A stretch of 34,711 nt of DNA, from positions 1-34,711 of the forward strand of contig JAUHZK010000015.1 of the NCBI GenBank assembly GCA_030425645.1, written 5' to 3'. Positions 5,654 through 34,711 of this stretch are shown piece by piece (the stretch's first letter is position 1; every line of letters starts with the position of its first letter). The stretch is from Gammaproteobacteria bacterium. Its GTDB lineage: Bacteria > Pseudomonadota > Gammaproteobacteria > JAPPPA01. Position numbers and translations under genes: made by a program. The notes under the pieces were generated by a model, which worked only from the letters and a program-made list of their open reading frames with translations, had not been told where the DNA came from and did no database searches.

Positions 5654-5968
5654 ATGAACCGCATCCGTAAAGGCGACCAAGTCGTCGTAACCACCGGCAA
5701 AAGCAAAGGCCAGCAAGGCGCTGTACTTTCTTTCTCTGGTGAAGACCGTGTGATTGTTGATGGTGTTAACTTGGTTAAGAAACACCAGAAGCCGAATCCT
5801 AATGCTGGCGTACAAGGCGGCATTATTGAGAAAGAAGCTCCAATTCACATTTCTAATGTAATGCTGCTAAACCCTGAAACGGGCAAAGGCGACCGCGTTG
5901 GCTACCGTGAAGCCGACGGTAAGAAAGAGCGTTACTTCAAATCCAACGGCAATGCCGTTGAGCAATAA
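5654..5968 (+). CDS. rplX: 50S ribosomal protein L24
   Basis: L24 of 104 residues (E. coli 104) with a KOW motif near the N-terminus ([20 protein letters not shown]). It is an assembly initiator protein that binds the 5' end of 23S rRNA. The start is set by CAGGAGAG ten bases upstream. In E. coli the S8 repressor site lies around the downstream rplX-rplE junction; I could not identify the site here from sequence alone. Confidence 0.98.
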
Positions 5969-5987
5969 GTAACGAGGGAATACACAA

Positions 5988-6554
5988 ATGGCAAACTTGA
6001 AACAGTTTTACCGTGAAACGGTAGTGCCTAAGCTGATGGAGCAGTTCAAATACAGCTCTAGCATGCAGGTGCCTAAAATCACCAAAATCACCCTGAACAT
6101 GGGTGTGGGTGAGGCGATTGGCGACAAGAAAGTGCTTGAGCACGCAGTTGCTGATATGACCAAAATCGCTGGCCAGAAGCCTGTGATTACAAAAGCACGC
6201 AAATCTATCGCTGGCTTTAAGATCCGTGACGATTACCCAATCGGCGTCAAAGTTACCTTGCGTCAAGAGCGCATGTACGACTTTTTCGAGCGTTTGGTAC
6301 ATGTGTCTTTGCCACGTGTGCGTGACTTCCACGGTGTAAACCCAAAAGCATTCGACGGTCGTGGTAACTACAACCTAGGTGTTACTGAGCAAATCATGTT
6401 CCCAGAAATCGATTTCGATCAAATCGACAAGCTGCGCGGCATGGACATTGCTATTACTACTACCGCTAAGAACGACGAAGAAGGTCAAGCGCTATTGGCT
6501 GCCTTTGGTTTCCCGTTCAAAAAACAAGCTAAGAAACAACAGGCAGAGGCGTAA
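5988..6554 (+). CDS. rplE: 50S ribosomal protein L5
   Basis: L5 of 188 residues, about nine longer than E. coli because of a Lys/Gln-rich tail after the normal end ([16 protein letters not shown]). The core is ordinary: [20 protein letters not shown] and the [20 protein letters not shown]-like region (here [20 protein letters not shown]). It binds 5S rRNA and contacts P-site tRNA. The ribosome-binding site is GAGGGAAT. It is followed by rpsN after only two bases. Confidence 0.98.
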
Positions 6555-6556
6555 GC

Positions 6557-6862
6557 ATGGCTAAGGTTTCAATGGTTCAGCGCGAGCTGAAACGTACTAA
6601 AAAAGTTGCCAAGTTCGCTGCAAAGCGCGCTGAACTTAAGAAAATCATCAGCGACGTAAATGCTGATCCTGAAGCTAAGTTTGACGCCATGCAAAAACTG
6701 AGTAAACTGCCGCGCGACGGTAGCCCGGTTCGCCAGCAAAATCGCTGTGAACTAACCGGTCGCCCGCATGGTGTTTACCGTAAGTTTGGCTTAAGTCGCA
6801 TTAAGCTTCGTGAAGAAGCGATGAAGGGAAATATCCCTGGCTTAACTAAGTCTAGCTGGTAA
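6557..6862 (+). CDS. rpsN: 30S ribosomal protein S14, zinc-free long form
   Basis: S14 of 101 residues, the long (C-minus) form found in E. coli, without the CXXC zinc pairs of the short form. It starts [20 protein letters not shown] and ends [21 protein letters not shown]. It belongs to the 30S head and assembles late. After its stop there is an unusually long 113-base gap with three hairpins before rpsH. Confidence 0.97.
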
Positions 6863-31635: not shown

Positions 31636-31711
31636 GTGGGCGTAGCTCAGTTGGTAGAGCTCCGGATTGTGATTCCGGCGGTCGTGGGTTCAAGCCCCAT
31701 CGTCCACCCCA
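31636..31711 (+). tRNA. tRNA-His (anticodon GTG)
   Basis: A 76-base cloverleaf. The acceptor arm is GTGGGCG with CGTCCAC. The base before it is G and the discriminator is C, as expected for the extra G-1:C73 pair of tRNA-His. The anticodon loop TTGTGAT gives GTG. It is the last tRNA and lies next to the integrase gene, so its 3' end is the likely attachment site of the mobile element. Confidence 0.97.
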
Positions 31712-31719
31712 TATTCTAC

Positions 31720-31799: not shown

Positions 31800-32825
31800 C
31801 TAGCGGGTTGCTGCTATCGTCTCAATTTGACGGTCATAGGTGCGAACCATCCGTGGAGAGTAGTCACCGGTTGCGGCCTGCTTGTCGCCTTGGAAGTCCG
31901 ACACGCCCTTGGCTTTGAGGTCGTGAAACGTGAACGGTTTTTCCATGCCCTGTGGGAATGCCTTCTTGAAAGCTTTTCCCCATGCTGTGGTGATCGCGCT
32001 TCCGGTAAGAGCTAACCCTCGGTTGTTCAGTAGCACGTTATGGCAGACTACATTTTTACGGAGAGACTTGGCGAGGTCTAAAGCTTTATTCAAGCGTTCC
32101 CCTCTCTCGACCAGTTGGGTCTTTGAGCCTTTTTTGCGCTTAACCAACACATGGGTGTCATCTACGGCTTGCCACTTTAGTTCAACGGTTTCGATCTTCC
32201 GCATACGGCACAGATAGGCTAGCTCCATTGCTACTTTTAAGTTTGACGGTGCCGCGTCATATAGAGCTTGGTATTCCTCGTCGGTAACGTACCTGTCCCT
32301 TGGCGTCTCCTTTATGCCTTTGACACCAATGCACGGGTTGGATGGTATGTATCCGTTCCTAGCTGCCCAGCCAAGACAGCTAGATAAGGCTGCTTTCTCT
32401 CTATTGGCTCTCACGCCAGCGGTGCGCGAACGCTCCTCTACGTAGCGTTGCACGGTGTGGGTTTTAATGGTTCGAGCATCAAAGCTCCCAAATGACTGGC
32501 CACTAGCGGTTCTGGTGTTGATGATCCGCTCTAGGTCTCCGCTGTAGTCTTGCTGGGTGCGGGGTTTCTTTTGGGTAAAGTCCATCGACTTTTTGAACTG
32601 GCTGACGAGGTAGCAAAGAGTGTTGCTTTTGGCTCCGGCTTCCATTTCGTTGAATGCAGTCCAGACCTCGCCGCGCGAAGAGTTAAGTGGGCAGAGCACA
32701 ATGTCTTTGCCAAATACACGTTTGCCGTTTTCCATTCCCAAGTAGGGGCGGTAGAAATAGTGCCATTTGTTCTTGTAGACATACGGTGGTAGTCCAGTGT
32801 TTTTTCGAAGGCGTGGGCGAGTCAT
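31800..32825 (-). CDS. Tyrosine recombinase (phage-type integrase)
   Basis: A 341-residue integrase. The N-terminal arm-binding region is YVYKNKWHYFYRPYLGMENG (15-34) and a SAM-like core-binding domain spans about 68-160. The catalytic part has R209 in LCRMRKIETVEL, Lys near 230-232, H301 in FTFHDLKAKGVSD and the nucleophile Y330 in MVRTYDRQ. The second Arg of the HXXR motif is Lys (K304), a form I recall from phage integrases with HDLKAKG, and the later His (GH) is Asp (D321 in TGDYS). Its ATG overlaps the stop of the upstream small gene (ATGA). It reads toward tRNA-His, its likely target. Confidence 0.88.
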   Translation of the reverse strand: MTRPRLRKNTGLPPYVYKNKWHYFYRPYLGMENGKRVFGKDIVLCPLNSSRGEVWTAFNEMEAGAKSNTLCYLVSQFKKSMDFTQKKPRTQQDYSGDLERIINTRTASGQSFGSFDARTIKTHTVQRYVEERSRTAGVRANREKAALSSCLGWAARNGYIPSNPCIGVKGIKETPRDRYVTDEEYQALYDAAPSNLKVAMELAYLCRMRKIETVELKWQAVDDTHVLVKRKKGSKTQLVERGERLNKALDLAKSLRKNVVCHNVLLNNRGLALTGSAITTAWGKAFKKAFPQGMEKPFTFHDLKAKGVSDFQGDKQAATGDYSPRMVRTYDRQIETIAATR

Positions 32826-33034
32826 GAAAAGGTTGGTTCCAGTTGGTTGTTGAGTGAGCGAAGGTAAAAAGATATAGCGTCAACCGTGGTATAGACGCAA
32901 CCTCCTTGGCCTCGTCTGAACTGAACACCTTCTGAGTTAAGGTGTCGTACAAGGTCGGCTCGGCGGGTGTAGCCCGTGGTGTCCATTAGTTGCTCCTCGG
33001 TCACTAAAAAGGAATTTACTAAGCTGCTAATCAT
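32822..33034 (-). CDS. DUF4224-like small protein
   Basis: A 70-residue protein if it starts at 33034: MISSLVNSFLVTEEQLMDTT, then GYTRRADLVRHLNSEGVQFR and a C-terminal helix. The pattern (V/L)TEEQLxxxTGYxRxxxLxxxLNxxGVxFRRG fits DUF4224, small proteins often found just upstream of integrase genes; a directionality-factor role is plausible but unproven. The stop overlaps the integrase start by four bases and the start overlaps the preceding gene by eight, so it is in a tight operon. A longer frame to 33202 overlaps that gene widely and is not preferred. Confidence 0.75.
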   Translation of the reverse strand: MISSLVNSFLVTEEQLMDTTGYTRRADLVRHLNSEGVQFRRGQGGCVYTTVDAISFYLRSLNNQLEPTFS

Positions 33035-33344
33035 GGTCGTTACATTTGGATTTTTTGATAGCTCTGTTGGCCTCGGCTGTCTTACAGGACAAAGCTCTGA
33101 ATGGATATAGAGCGCATTTGGTGAAGAGACAATTTTCGACTTGTTGTCTCCAGCTTCCTTTCTCTGCGGGGTCATATATGCAGTCTTTGCAGTGCTGCTC
33201 AATCGCTGACTTGCGTGAGTGGTTTTGAGTGGTGTTGTTGGTTGTCTTCATTGGTTGTTTTTTTTGCTTCTGGCAGTTGGCTTTGGGGTGCTTTTGCGCA
33301 AACTTTGAGGGTTTTAGGTGTTGCTTTAGGCTTTGGGTGGGCAC
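33027..33344 (-). CDS. Cys-rich small protein of the integrase operon
   Basis: A 105-residue protein with a Lys/Gln-rich N-terminus and a four-cysteine motif C52-X2-C55-X16-C72-X4-C77 (HCKDCIYDPAEKG, then NCLFTKCALYPFRA). It looks like a small zinc-binding domain of a kind I recall in phage and island genes (CALYPFR/CPLWPYR endings). The GTG start is decided by a near-perfect ribosome-binding site GAGGAGGT six bases upstream. The ATG at 33251 (74 residues) has no such site. It is the first gene of the operon to the integrase. Confidence 0.7.
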   Translation of the reverse strand: MPTQSLKQHLKPSKFAQKHPKANCQKQKKQPMKTTNNTTQNHSRKSAIEQHCKDCIYDPAEKGSWRQQVENCLFTKCALYPFRALSCKTAEANRAIKKSKCNDHD

Positions 33345-33536: not shown

Positions 33537-34613
33537 TCACCATTCGGTATTGATCTTGGGGCTTTGACCATGGACATGATTTCTATAGCAGCTAACCATT
33601 AACTCCTTAGCGTCTTTGGCCTGACTCCTAGGGCACAACAGACCGTCGTGGATCGGTAACAAGGCTAGATCGGTGGTGATGGAGTTGAGGAGGATGTCAG
33701 TCATGATGTCTGAGTCCTTCCGCTGTAGTTTTAGCCCAAAACCCCTAAACCATAGGCCGTGGAGTTCCGGGTAAGCCCTAGCAATAAGTGCTTGTATCGC
33801 TGACCAGCTAACCCCTTTGGGTAGTAATTCTCTAAGTCTTTTTGGTGCAACTCTCAATGGAGCGTAGCTACTTAGACACGCGTTGATCGCAAGCTTTGCG
33901 GCTTTCCTCCTTAGTGCGGGGCATTGATCCAACAGGCGTTGATATGGGTCAGTGTGAGGTGATACAACTGATCCAACATGAGCTAGGGCCAATCTAAGCC
34001 CCATGGCCTCATAGTCGAGGCAGGTGAGGGCTTCGCCTTTGATTCTGAGTGATTGTCGTTCTATAGCTGAAAGGTCTTGCCAAAATCCACCGTAGTAGCG
34101 CCCACCATGTTCGAGACCTCCGTTATTAAAGACTCGATATAGAGTTCCCGGGTAATGTCCAAATACAGCGGTCGGCGTGAGGATGGGGATTGCCTGTGGG
34201 GAATCTAGATGGAAGCTATTGATGTGGGCGTTGATTGCTAGGGTCTGATCTCGAATGTCTTGGATAAGTTTGGTTTCTGGTGTGGGCAGTCGAGAGTCGC
34301 AATGTTTTAAGAACTTGTCGCTAGGATCCTTGATAACGACTGGGGGCGATGTCTTTGGGTTGCAGTCAATTGTGCTAAGCATGGTGGTTGGGGCTGCCCC
34401 TAGTAGTTGAATAAGAGAGTCGCTAGCCCTAATTACTGTGCAAGGCCTTGCTCCGGCTATTGATATCTTCTTTCTCTGGATGCACCCGGCATACTCAAGT
34501 GCATCTAGCACCGTAGTCACTCGTCTGGCCGAGAATAGCGAGCCAAATTGCCCCTTGTTGAGTTGAGCTGCTGAGGTCGGCACTCGGGTAATCCCCCGAT
34601 AAAACGGACACAT
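33537..34613 (-). CDS. Superfamily A polymerase-like protein of a mobile element (5' truncated)
   Basis: A 358-residue frame. The N-terminal part has a winged-helix look (RRVTTVLDALEYAGCIQRKK, 30-49). The conserved block LYRVFNNGGLEHGGRYYGGF (158-177) leads to three palm motifs: motif A TCLDYEAMGLRLALAHVG (D200), motif B RRKAAKLAINACLSSYA (R235, K240, Y250, like the O-helix) and motif C LPIHDGLLCP (H322, D323, closer to T7-type HDS than to the HDE of DNA polymerase I). No exonuclease domain is present. This fits the transposon/virus polymerases (TV-Pols) described as related to family A. The first about ten residues are read from the adjoining IS end, so the true N-terminus is probably lost and the gene may be a pseudogene. 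Confidence 0.65.
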   Translation of the reverse strand: MCPFYRGITRVPTSAAQLNKGQFGSLFSARRVTTVLDALEYAGCIQRKKISIAGARPCTVIRASDSLIQLLGAAPTTMLSTIDCNPKTSPPVVIKDPSDKFLKHCDSRLPTPETKLIQDIRDQTLAINAHINSFHLDSPQAIPILTPTAVFGHYPGTLYRVFNNGGLEHGGRYYGGFWQDLSAIERQSLRIKGEALTCLDYEAMGLRLALAHVGSVVSPHTDPYQRLLDQCPALRRKAAKLAINACLSSYAPLRVAPKRLRELLPKGVSWSAIQALIARAYPELHGLWFRGFGLKLQRKDSDIMTDILLNSITTDLALLPIHDGLLCPRSQAKDAKELMVSCYRNHVHGQSPKINTEW

Positions 34614-34649
34614 TGAAAAGGTACTATTAGATACCTAAAGGAATGTGTC
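34607..34649 (+). promoter_or_regulatory. Nested hairpin at the IS end before orfA
   Basis: Outer arms GACACATT (34607-34614) and AATGTGTC (34642-34649), inner arms AGGTA (34619-34623) and TACCT (34632-34636) with loop CTATTAGA. The transposase start follows at once and its ribosome-binding stretch AAAGGA (34637-34642) lies within the structure. Similar structures protect some IS elements from read-through expression. Confidence 0.6.
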
Positions 34650-34711
34650 ATGAACAAACGCAAACACTACTCATCTGAGTTTAAACAGGAAGCTCTCGCA
34701 CTGGTCGACAG
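34650..34711 (+). CDS. IS3-family transposase OrfA, N-terminal part (partial)
   Basis: The first 20 codons (MNKRKHYSSEFKQEALALVD) before the window ends. This is the start of the helix-turn-helix domain (HTH_Tnp_1) of OrfA of IS3-family elements (consensus-like YSxEFKxEALxLV). AAAGGA lies eight bases upstream. The exact left end of the IS is not visible; it is probably somewhere between 34580 and 34607 and cuts into the polymerase-like gene. Confidence 0.75.
   Translation, partial: MNKRKHYSSEFKQEALALVD

Follow-up and report, generated by a model that had tools for sequence, protein, structure and literature searches.

The tRNA-His element and its genes

The window analyzed here is a stretch of 34,711 nucleotides, one contig (C15) of a gammaproteobacterial genome (G000). 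Close to its end it carries part of an integrative element inserted at a tRNA-His gene, and this part includes a minus-strand open frame (33537-34613; 358 aa as read) with the motifs of a family A polymerase. The features of the region are as follows:

31636-31711, plus strand: tRNA-His(gtg), the integration target (ARAGORN)
31665-31717, plus strand: attL, a direct repeat of 53 bp that covers the 3' part of tRNA-His and 6 bp beyond it; the other copy is at G000:C9:297066-297118
31800-32825, minus strand: tyrosine recombinase (integrase), 341 aa (Pfam Phage_integrase, 4.8e-10; PHROG integrase, 1.4e-39)
32822-33202, minus strand: probable excisionase, weakly DUF4224-like, 126 aa (PHROG excisionase, 2e-6; Pfam DUF4224, 0.037, below cut-off)
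33027-33344, minus strand: small Cys-rich ORF, 105 aa, overlapping the start of the excisionase ORF (by eye)
33537-34584, minus strand: TV-Pol-like polymerase gene, element-encoded part (residues ~10-358), with the catalytic domain at residues 82-358 (ORF, alignment, AlphaFold2 model, Foldseek, VIA)
34585-34711, no strand assigned: end of an IS3-like insertion (identical to the terminal 127 bp of contig C14; transposase orfA begins at 34650)

An integrase targeting tRNA-His had been proposed for this locus, and the boundaries of the element bear this out. The attL repeat and its copy on contig C9 match exactly over 53 bp, and in a genome of the same genus (G001) both outer flanks were observed to be contiguous around a single copy of the repeat (52/53), which represents the empty site. 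The att copies enclose 2867 bp on C15, 3272 bp on C9 and an insertion sequence (IS); without the IS the element is ~6.1 kb. Its genes are in the order integrase, excisionase-like gene, Cys-rich ORF, C-terminal part of the polymerase gene, IS, N-terminal part of the polymerase gene, an ORF of 113 aa, serine resolvase (Pfam Resolvase, 7e-41), XRE regulator and ImmA/IrrE-like metallopeptidase.

The resolvase, XRE and ImmA/IrrE-like genes are near attR on C9, at L026:6984-7574 (+), 6400-6780 (-) and 5848-6390 (-), respectively. An AlpA match inside the resolvase (0.0022) was below the cut-off, as was a zf-C4pol match for the Cys-rich ORF (0.018), which was rejected. A similar Cys pattern was noted by eye in an ORF beside the polymerase gene of one relative (L022:2285-2641), and neither of these small ORFs had a Pfam family above the cut-off.

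The interrupted polymerase gene

The start of the polymerase frame lies inside IS sequence. Bases 34585-34711 overlap the end of another contig of this genome, C14, with full identity over 127 bp, and contain the start of an IS3-type orfA, for which the HTH_Tnp_1 match is weak since it covers just 20 aa. This stretch supplies the ATG and the first 29 bases of the listed ORF, and the first ~10 residues (MCPFYRGITR) are IS-derived. The opposite end of the same IS was found to terminate contigs C6 and C9. On C9, directly behind the IS end, there is a frame of 95 codons (L026:8140-8427, +) that runs into IS sequence after ...LLDQHIEHWLR, and its position, strand and hydrophobic, helical character (by eye, unscored) are as expected for the lost N-terminus. 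When the window ORF was aligned to the PHROG family phrog_4756, its residue 17 was placed at profile position 91 of 440, and in relatives a median of 79 residues precede the start of the alignment to the window protein.

That the ORF starts inside IS sequence, together with the N-terminal frame on C9, indicates that the gene is split and that the 358-aa form is not a natural protein. Judged from the sequence, the lost N-terminal part (~84 residues) is located on C9, the polymerase gene is split by the IS3-like insertion, and the window is a contig that ends inside that IS. No target-site duplication was found in either possible pairing of contig ends, so the event was perhaps more than a simple insertion.

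The "minimal" protein of the original prediction is, therefore, an artefact of the IS insertion and the contig end; its relatives are mostly 450-520 aa, and the stretch that had been read as a winged helix corresponds to the end of a larger N-terminal domain that they possess. This reading should stay out of databases because the N-terminus of the ORF is IS sequence. As the insertion and the contig end created the 358-aa form, the polymerase copy in this genome probably does not work in the form read, and no second copy was found in the genome. The suggestion that the element encodes its own replication enzyme stands in part, in that an integrative element at tRNA-His does carry a polymerase gene, but this copy is split and probably non-working. 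The window protein also differs from its family at five conserved positions (G205, S248, G324, C198 and F177), and given these substitutions its catalytic half may itself be drifting.

Catalytic motifs and predicted fold

To collect relatives, two proteins from the same class and one plasmid copy were used as seeds. Pattern scanning failed with an initial, overly diverse alignment and succeeded with a tighter one of three sequences. One scan of 84,980 genomes yielded 171 relatives, from which 80 loci were kept, and viral contigs added four, giving 84 loci; single-protein scans of viral contigs gave no matches.

The three palm-type motifs described in the original prediction were found in the ORF and are near-invariant in 96 aligned family sequences. 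The motif A Asp is D200 in LDYEAMGLRLALAH, which is kept in all of the sequences (96/96). R236-x3-K240 lies in RRKAAKLAINACLSSY, with both residues kept in 95/96, and motif C is H322-D323 in IHDG (94/96 and 95/96, respectively). The exceptions at R236, K240, H322 and D323, which involve one or two sequences, are gaps or a single substitution. The original prediction had proposed checking whether D200, K240 and D323 are invariant in homologs, and it withstood that comparison. The fingers Asp, D222, is present in 94% of the 96 sequences and R186 in 100%. The Arg that TV-Pols have on a beta-hairpin before the palm is also present, the candidates being R160 (98%) and R172 (100%, a value that is biased since the GGRFYG stretch containing R172 served as a search pattern), which are in strands E158-162 and E170-175 of the predicted model. 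The other conserved positions were not search patterns. Given their near-invariance in the 96 sequences and the predicted fold, we rejected chance as the source of the motifs.

The AlphaFold2 model of the window ORF, built with 74 relatives, had a pLDDT of 84.7, with values of 96-98 across most of residues 190-358. Foldseek matched this model to family A DNA polymerases (including Pol theta) or mitochondrial RNA polymerases in 50/50 of the matches listed (best E 1.1e-6). VIA-align of the model with apPol (9qsc_A) gave a Z of 14.8 and 3.6 A over 234 residues, and the 50/50 rows listed by VIA belong to one superfamily, T7 RNA polymerase among them, where rows within 1 of the top Z count as tied. 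A full-length relative of 540 aa (model pLDDT 83.9) matched the same superfamily (best E 3.1e-5, Z 13.7). TM-scores against solved structures were modest (0.3-0.4), as expected at 10-18% identity. Structure prediction might have pointed to a non-polymerase fold, and all the matches listed were polymerases. With high confidence, residues 82-358 are predicted to form the thumb, palm and fingers known from family A DNA polymerases and from RNA polymerases of the T7 type. Full-length relatives carry a further N-terminal domain, which was modelled with strands plus helices.

A Pfam scan of the 67 members of a larger profile (A6) found no exonuclease domain, in agreement with what had been noted from the sequence of the ORF. 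Searches of Pfam, NCBIfam and PDB sequences gave no convincing match for the window protein or a small alignment, and likewise none for the 67-member profile. A SAM-like match for the polymerase (0.041) was below the cut-off and was rejected.

Family membership, relatives and proposed role

In 2008 the TV-Pol family was proposed to be near the ancestor of Pol I and of T7 RNA polymerase, and the virophage Sputnik is one of its named sources (Iyer, Abhiman and Aravind 2008, PMC2579912). Like TV-Pols, the window family has a family A palm with two Asp, a fingers Asp and RxxxK, a conserved beta-hairpin Arg and no nuclease domain; it is linked to a lambda-type integrase and a resolvase in mobile elements, and Rhodobacterales are well represented in both member lists (PMC2579912). 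Many published TV-Pols adjoin a D5 helicase, and the alternative feature in the family is an all-helical N-terminal domain, TV-PolN (PMC2579912). Neither a D5-like nor any other helicase was recognised in the window element or among ten cargo proteins from six delimited relatives, and the N-terminal domain modelled for a full-length relative contains strands besides helices. Unlike intact TV-Pols, the window copy is split by an IS.

The label TV-Pol for the window family is based on motifs, fold and context, and most of the features compared fit; at the level of sequence, the family is weakly connected to named TV-Pols. The TV-Pol-like identity put forward in the original prediction agrees with the fold, the catalytic and hairpin residues, the lack of a nuclease and the mobile context. 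BAF36121, which we take to be the TV-Pol member meant for phage Ma-LMM01, matched the family with an hmmsearch E of 0.095 and an hhalign E of 2e-4 (45% probability), and this match was unsupported with profile A6. As a control, A6 does not match the annotated DNA polymerase of Ma-LMM01 itself. The type of element is not new in kind, since the TV-Pol subset closest to the window family, which has an N-terminal domain and linked integrase or resolvase genes, was already described in 2008 (PMC2579912). What is added here is the delimitation at the level of att sites, the empty site, the sugar-gate signature and the correction for the IS.

The relatives are mostly from marine alphaproteobacteria, Rhodobacterales foremost. 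In a search for the same neighbourhood in other genomes, a tyrosine integrase was found to recur in 65/84 relative loci, and a serine recombinase is present in 21/84. In at least 29/84 loci the polymerase gene lies between direct repeats that derive from a tRNA 3' end and span 17 bp or more; this figure is a minimum, as many contigs stop close by. The smallest well-formed element, in Marivibrio halodurans, is 4.2 kb and consists of the polymerase gene, a 221-aa ORF of unknown kind and an integrase within a 52-bp tRNA-Gly repeat. The smallest bracket overall (L074) is 2.4 kb, has no integrase and is probably a remnant. Cargo in other elements includes a TIR protein, nSTAND3/Mrr and type I restriction-modification genes, all of which are likely anti-phage defence genes. 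In the delimited relatives cargo was seen at L108:10443-13154, L056:6425-8779 and L040:4580-6607.

Several other known systems resemble the window protein or its element. The ORF matches phrog_4756, a family of unknown function, at 2.1e-24, and this family and proteins of Vibrio phage ICP1 and of other large Vibrio, Aeromonas and Shewanella phages are clear sequence homologues. Against viral structure models, the full-length relative matched phage homologues with E values down to 5e-23. These homologues differ in that they sit in large phage genomes, and the five phage sequences sampled group as a separate clade (0.892). The full-length relative also matched the replication protein V6BPG7 of Zamilon virus in Foldseek, weakly by E (3.2e-3) and with a probability of 1.00, but V6BPG7 has a different domain layout, is 778 aa, and belongs to a satellite of a eukaryotic virus. 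PICMI satellites are likewise very small and integrase-based, and they combine regulators and an AlpA/Xis-type gene with a single gene for replication; the latter encodes a DUF3987/DUF5906 primase, whereas the window element has a family A polymerase (PMC10803314). Neither DUF3987/DUF5906 primase nor AlpA was found above the cut-off in the scanned ORFs of the window element.

Residues at the sugar gate were compared by motif register at D+5 (E710), K+4 (F762) and K+8 (Tyr766). The register is built on E. coli, Taq and T7 residue numbers, and a Tyr at K+8 is common to Pol I and T7 RNA polymerase. In this motif register D+5 is His in 77/96 sequences (G205 in the window copy), K+4 is Asn in 53/96 and Leu in 29/96 (N244), and K+8 is Asn in 87/96 (S248). 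CCPol of SCCmec keeps equivalents of E710 and F762, which exclude ribonucleotides, and it uses or prefers dNTPs (PMC7581432), whereas the window lineage mostly has His and Asn or Leu at those positions by motif register. Since the sugar-gate residues are replaced, sugar selection is predicted to be different from that of CCPol, which is a hint that the lineage may differ from CCPol in ribonucleotide use.

Priming by CCPol requires its partner MP, and the CCPol-MP pair has been demonstrated to act as a primase-polymerase that primes de novo (PMC7581432). The biochemistry of the group, described in the original prediction as little studied, is in that respect not wholly unstudied, but to the knowledge of the CCPol authors in 2020 no other TV-Pol had been characterised, leaving the SCCmec member as the sole one tested (PMC7581432). 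Like CCPol-MP and the PolA-SSB primases of Bacillota, for which a priming role has been proposed or shown, the window protein is a family A polymerase with reduced N-terminal domains on an integrating element; unlike them, it has no recognised SSB-like partner or helicase, and its hosts are proteobacterial (PMC7581432, PMC10061031). Sequence clustering found no recurrent small neighbour beside the polymerase, and MP is too variable for such a test.

Taken together, the window ORF is very probably the catalytic C-terminal part of a polymerase of the TV-Pol type, which was broken here by an IS and is the likely enzyme for replication of the ~6.1-kb tRNA-His element. We infer polymerase or primase activity, a replication role, dependence on the host and, for this copy, loss of function. 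In intact relatives, the integrase and excisionase would release the element as a circle, on which the two-metal palm site of the polymerase (D200, D323) would synthesise DNA, possibly after priming it, with the helicase and the remaining replisome parts supplied by the host. In this genome, the insertion parts the N-terminal from the catalytic domain, and the element would probably no longer be self-replicating.

A reading that we rate a little below even is that the enzyme is mainly a primase, making short primers on the excised element while host polymerase III performs the bulk of synthesis. CCPol-MP provides the precedent of a family A polymerase that primes de novo, the compact replication modules of PICMI satellites depend on a primase (PMC10803314), and the changed sugar-gate residues (His at D+5, Asn at K+8) are compatible with ribonucleotide primers, but a conserved small MP-like partner was not found beside the polymerase and the full thumb-palm-fingers fold suggests an ability to elongate as well. 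It is very improbable that the protein is a T7-like single-subunit RNA polymerase that transcribes the element rather than replicating it: mitochondrial and T7 RNA polymerases score as well as Pol I in the structural comparison and weak Pfam RNA_pol matches occur in 4/67 relatives (best 0.0061), yet the K+8 Tyr of Pol I and T7 RNA polymerase is replaced in most of the family and the protein is far smaller.

For the window ORF itself, decay to a pseudogene with no present function is a probable state, given the insertion, the foreign N-terminus, the single genomic copy and the substitutions at family-conserved positions; against this, the remaining frame is open, the catalytic residues are intact and the insertion may be recent. 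This is compatible with a TV-Pol-type replication enzyme as the preferred explanation, as the latter describes the intact family. The window protein does, then, belong to a known family of which little has been tested, and it is broken in this genome. Its relatives provide intact, delimited and very small bacterial elements with one polymerase gene and an integrase, as in M. halodurans, and they likely let such elements copy their own DNA. More speculatively, and in our view unlikely as a whole, the family may be a sugar-tolerant primase-polymerase lineage apart from CCPol which, with no more than an integrase and the host helicase, allows integrative elements that copy themselves and rank among the smallest known (to 4.2 kb), many of which would carry anti-phage genes from one marine bacterium to another.

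During these studies, we noted that the homologues in large lytic vibriophages (ICP1 and relatives, e.g., L013:5164-6651) are annotated just as hypothetical and in some records occur at 2-3 places. Two polymerase genes close together were observed at single loci in L113 (1164-2474 and 5893-6912) and L050 (8785-10464 and 14578-16326). Glaciecola sp. HTCC2999 has two close polymerase copies ~22 kb apart on one contig (L082, L094), for which a recent duplication or a tandem insertion is possible.
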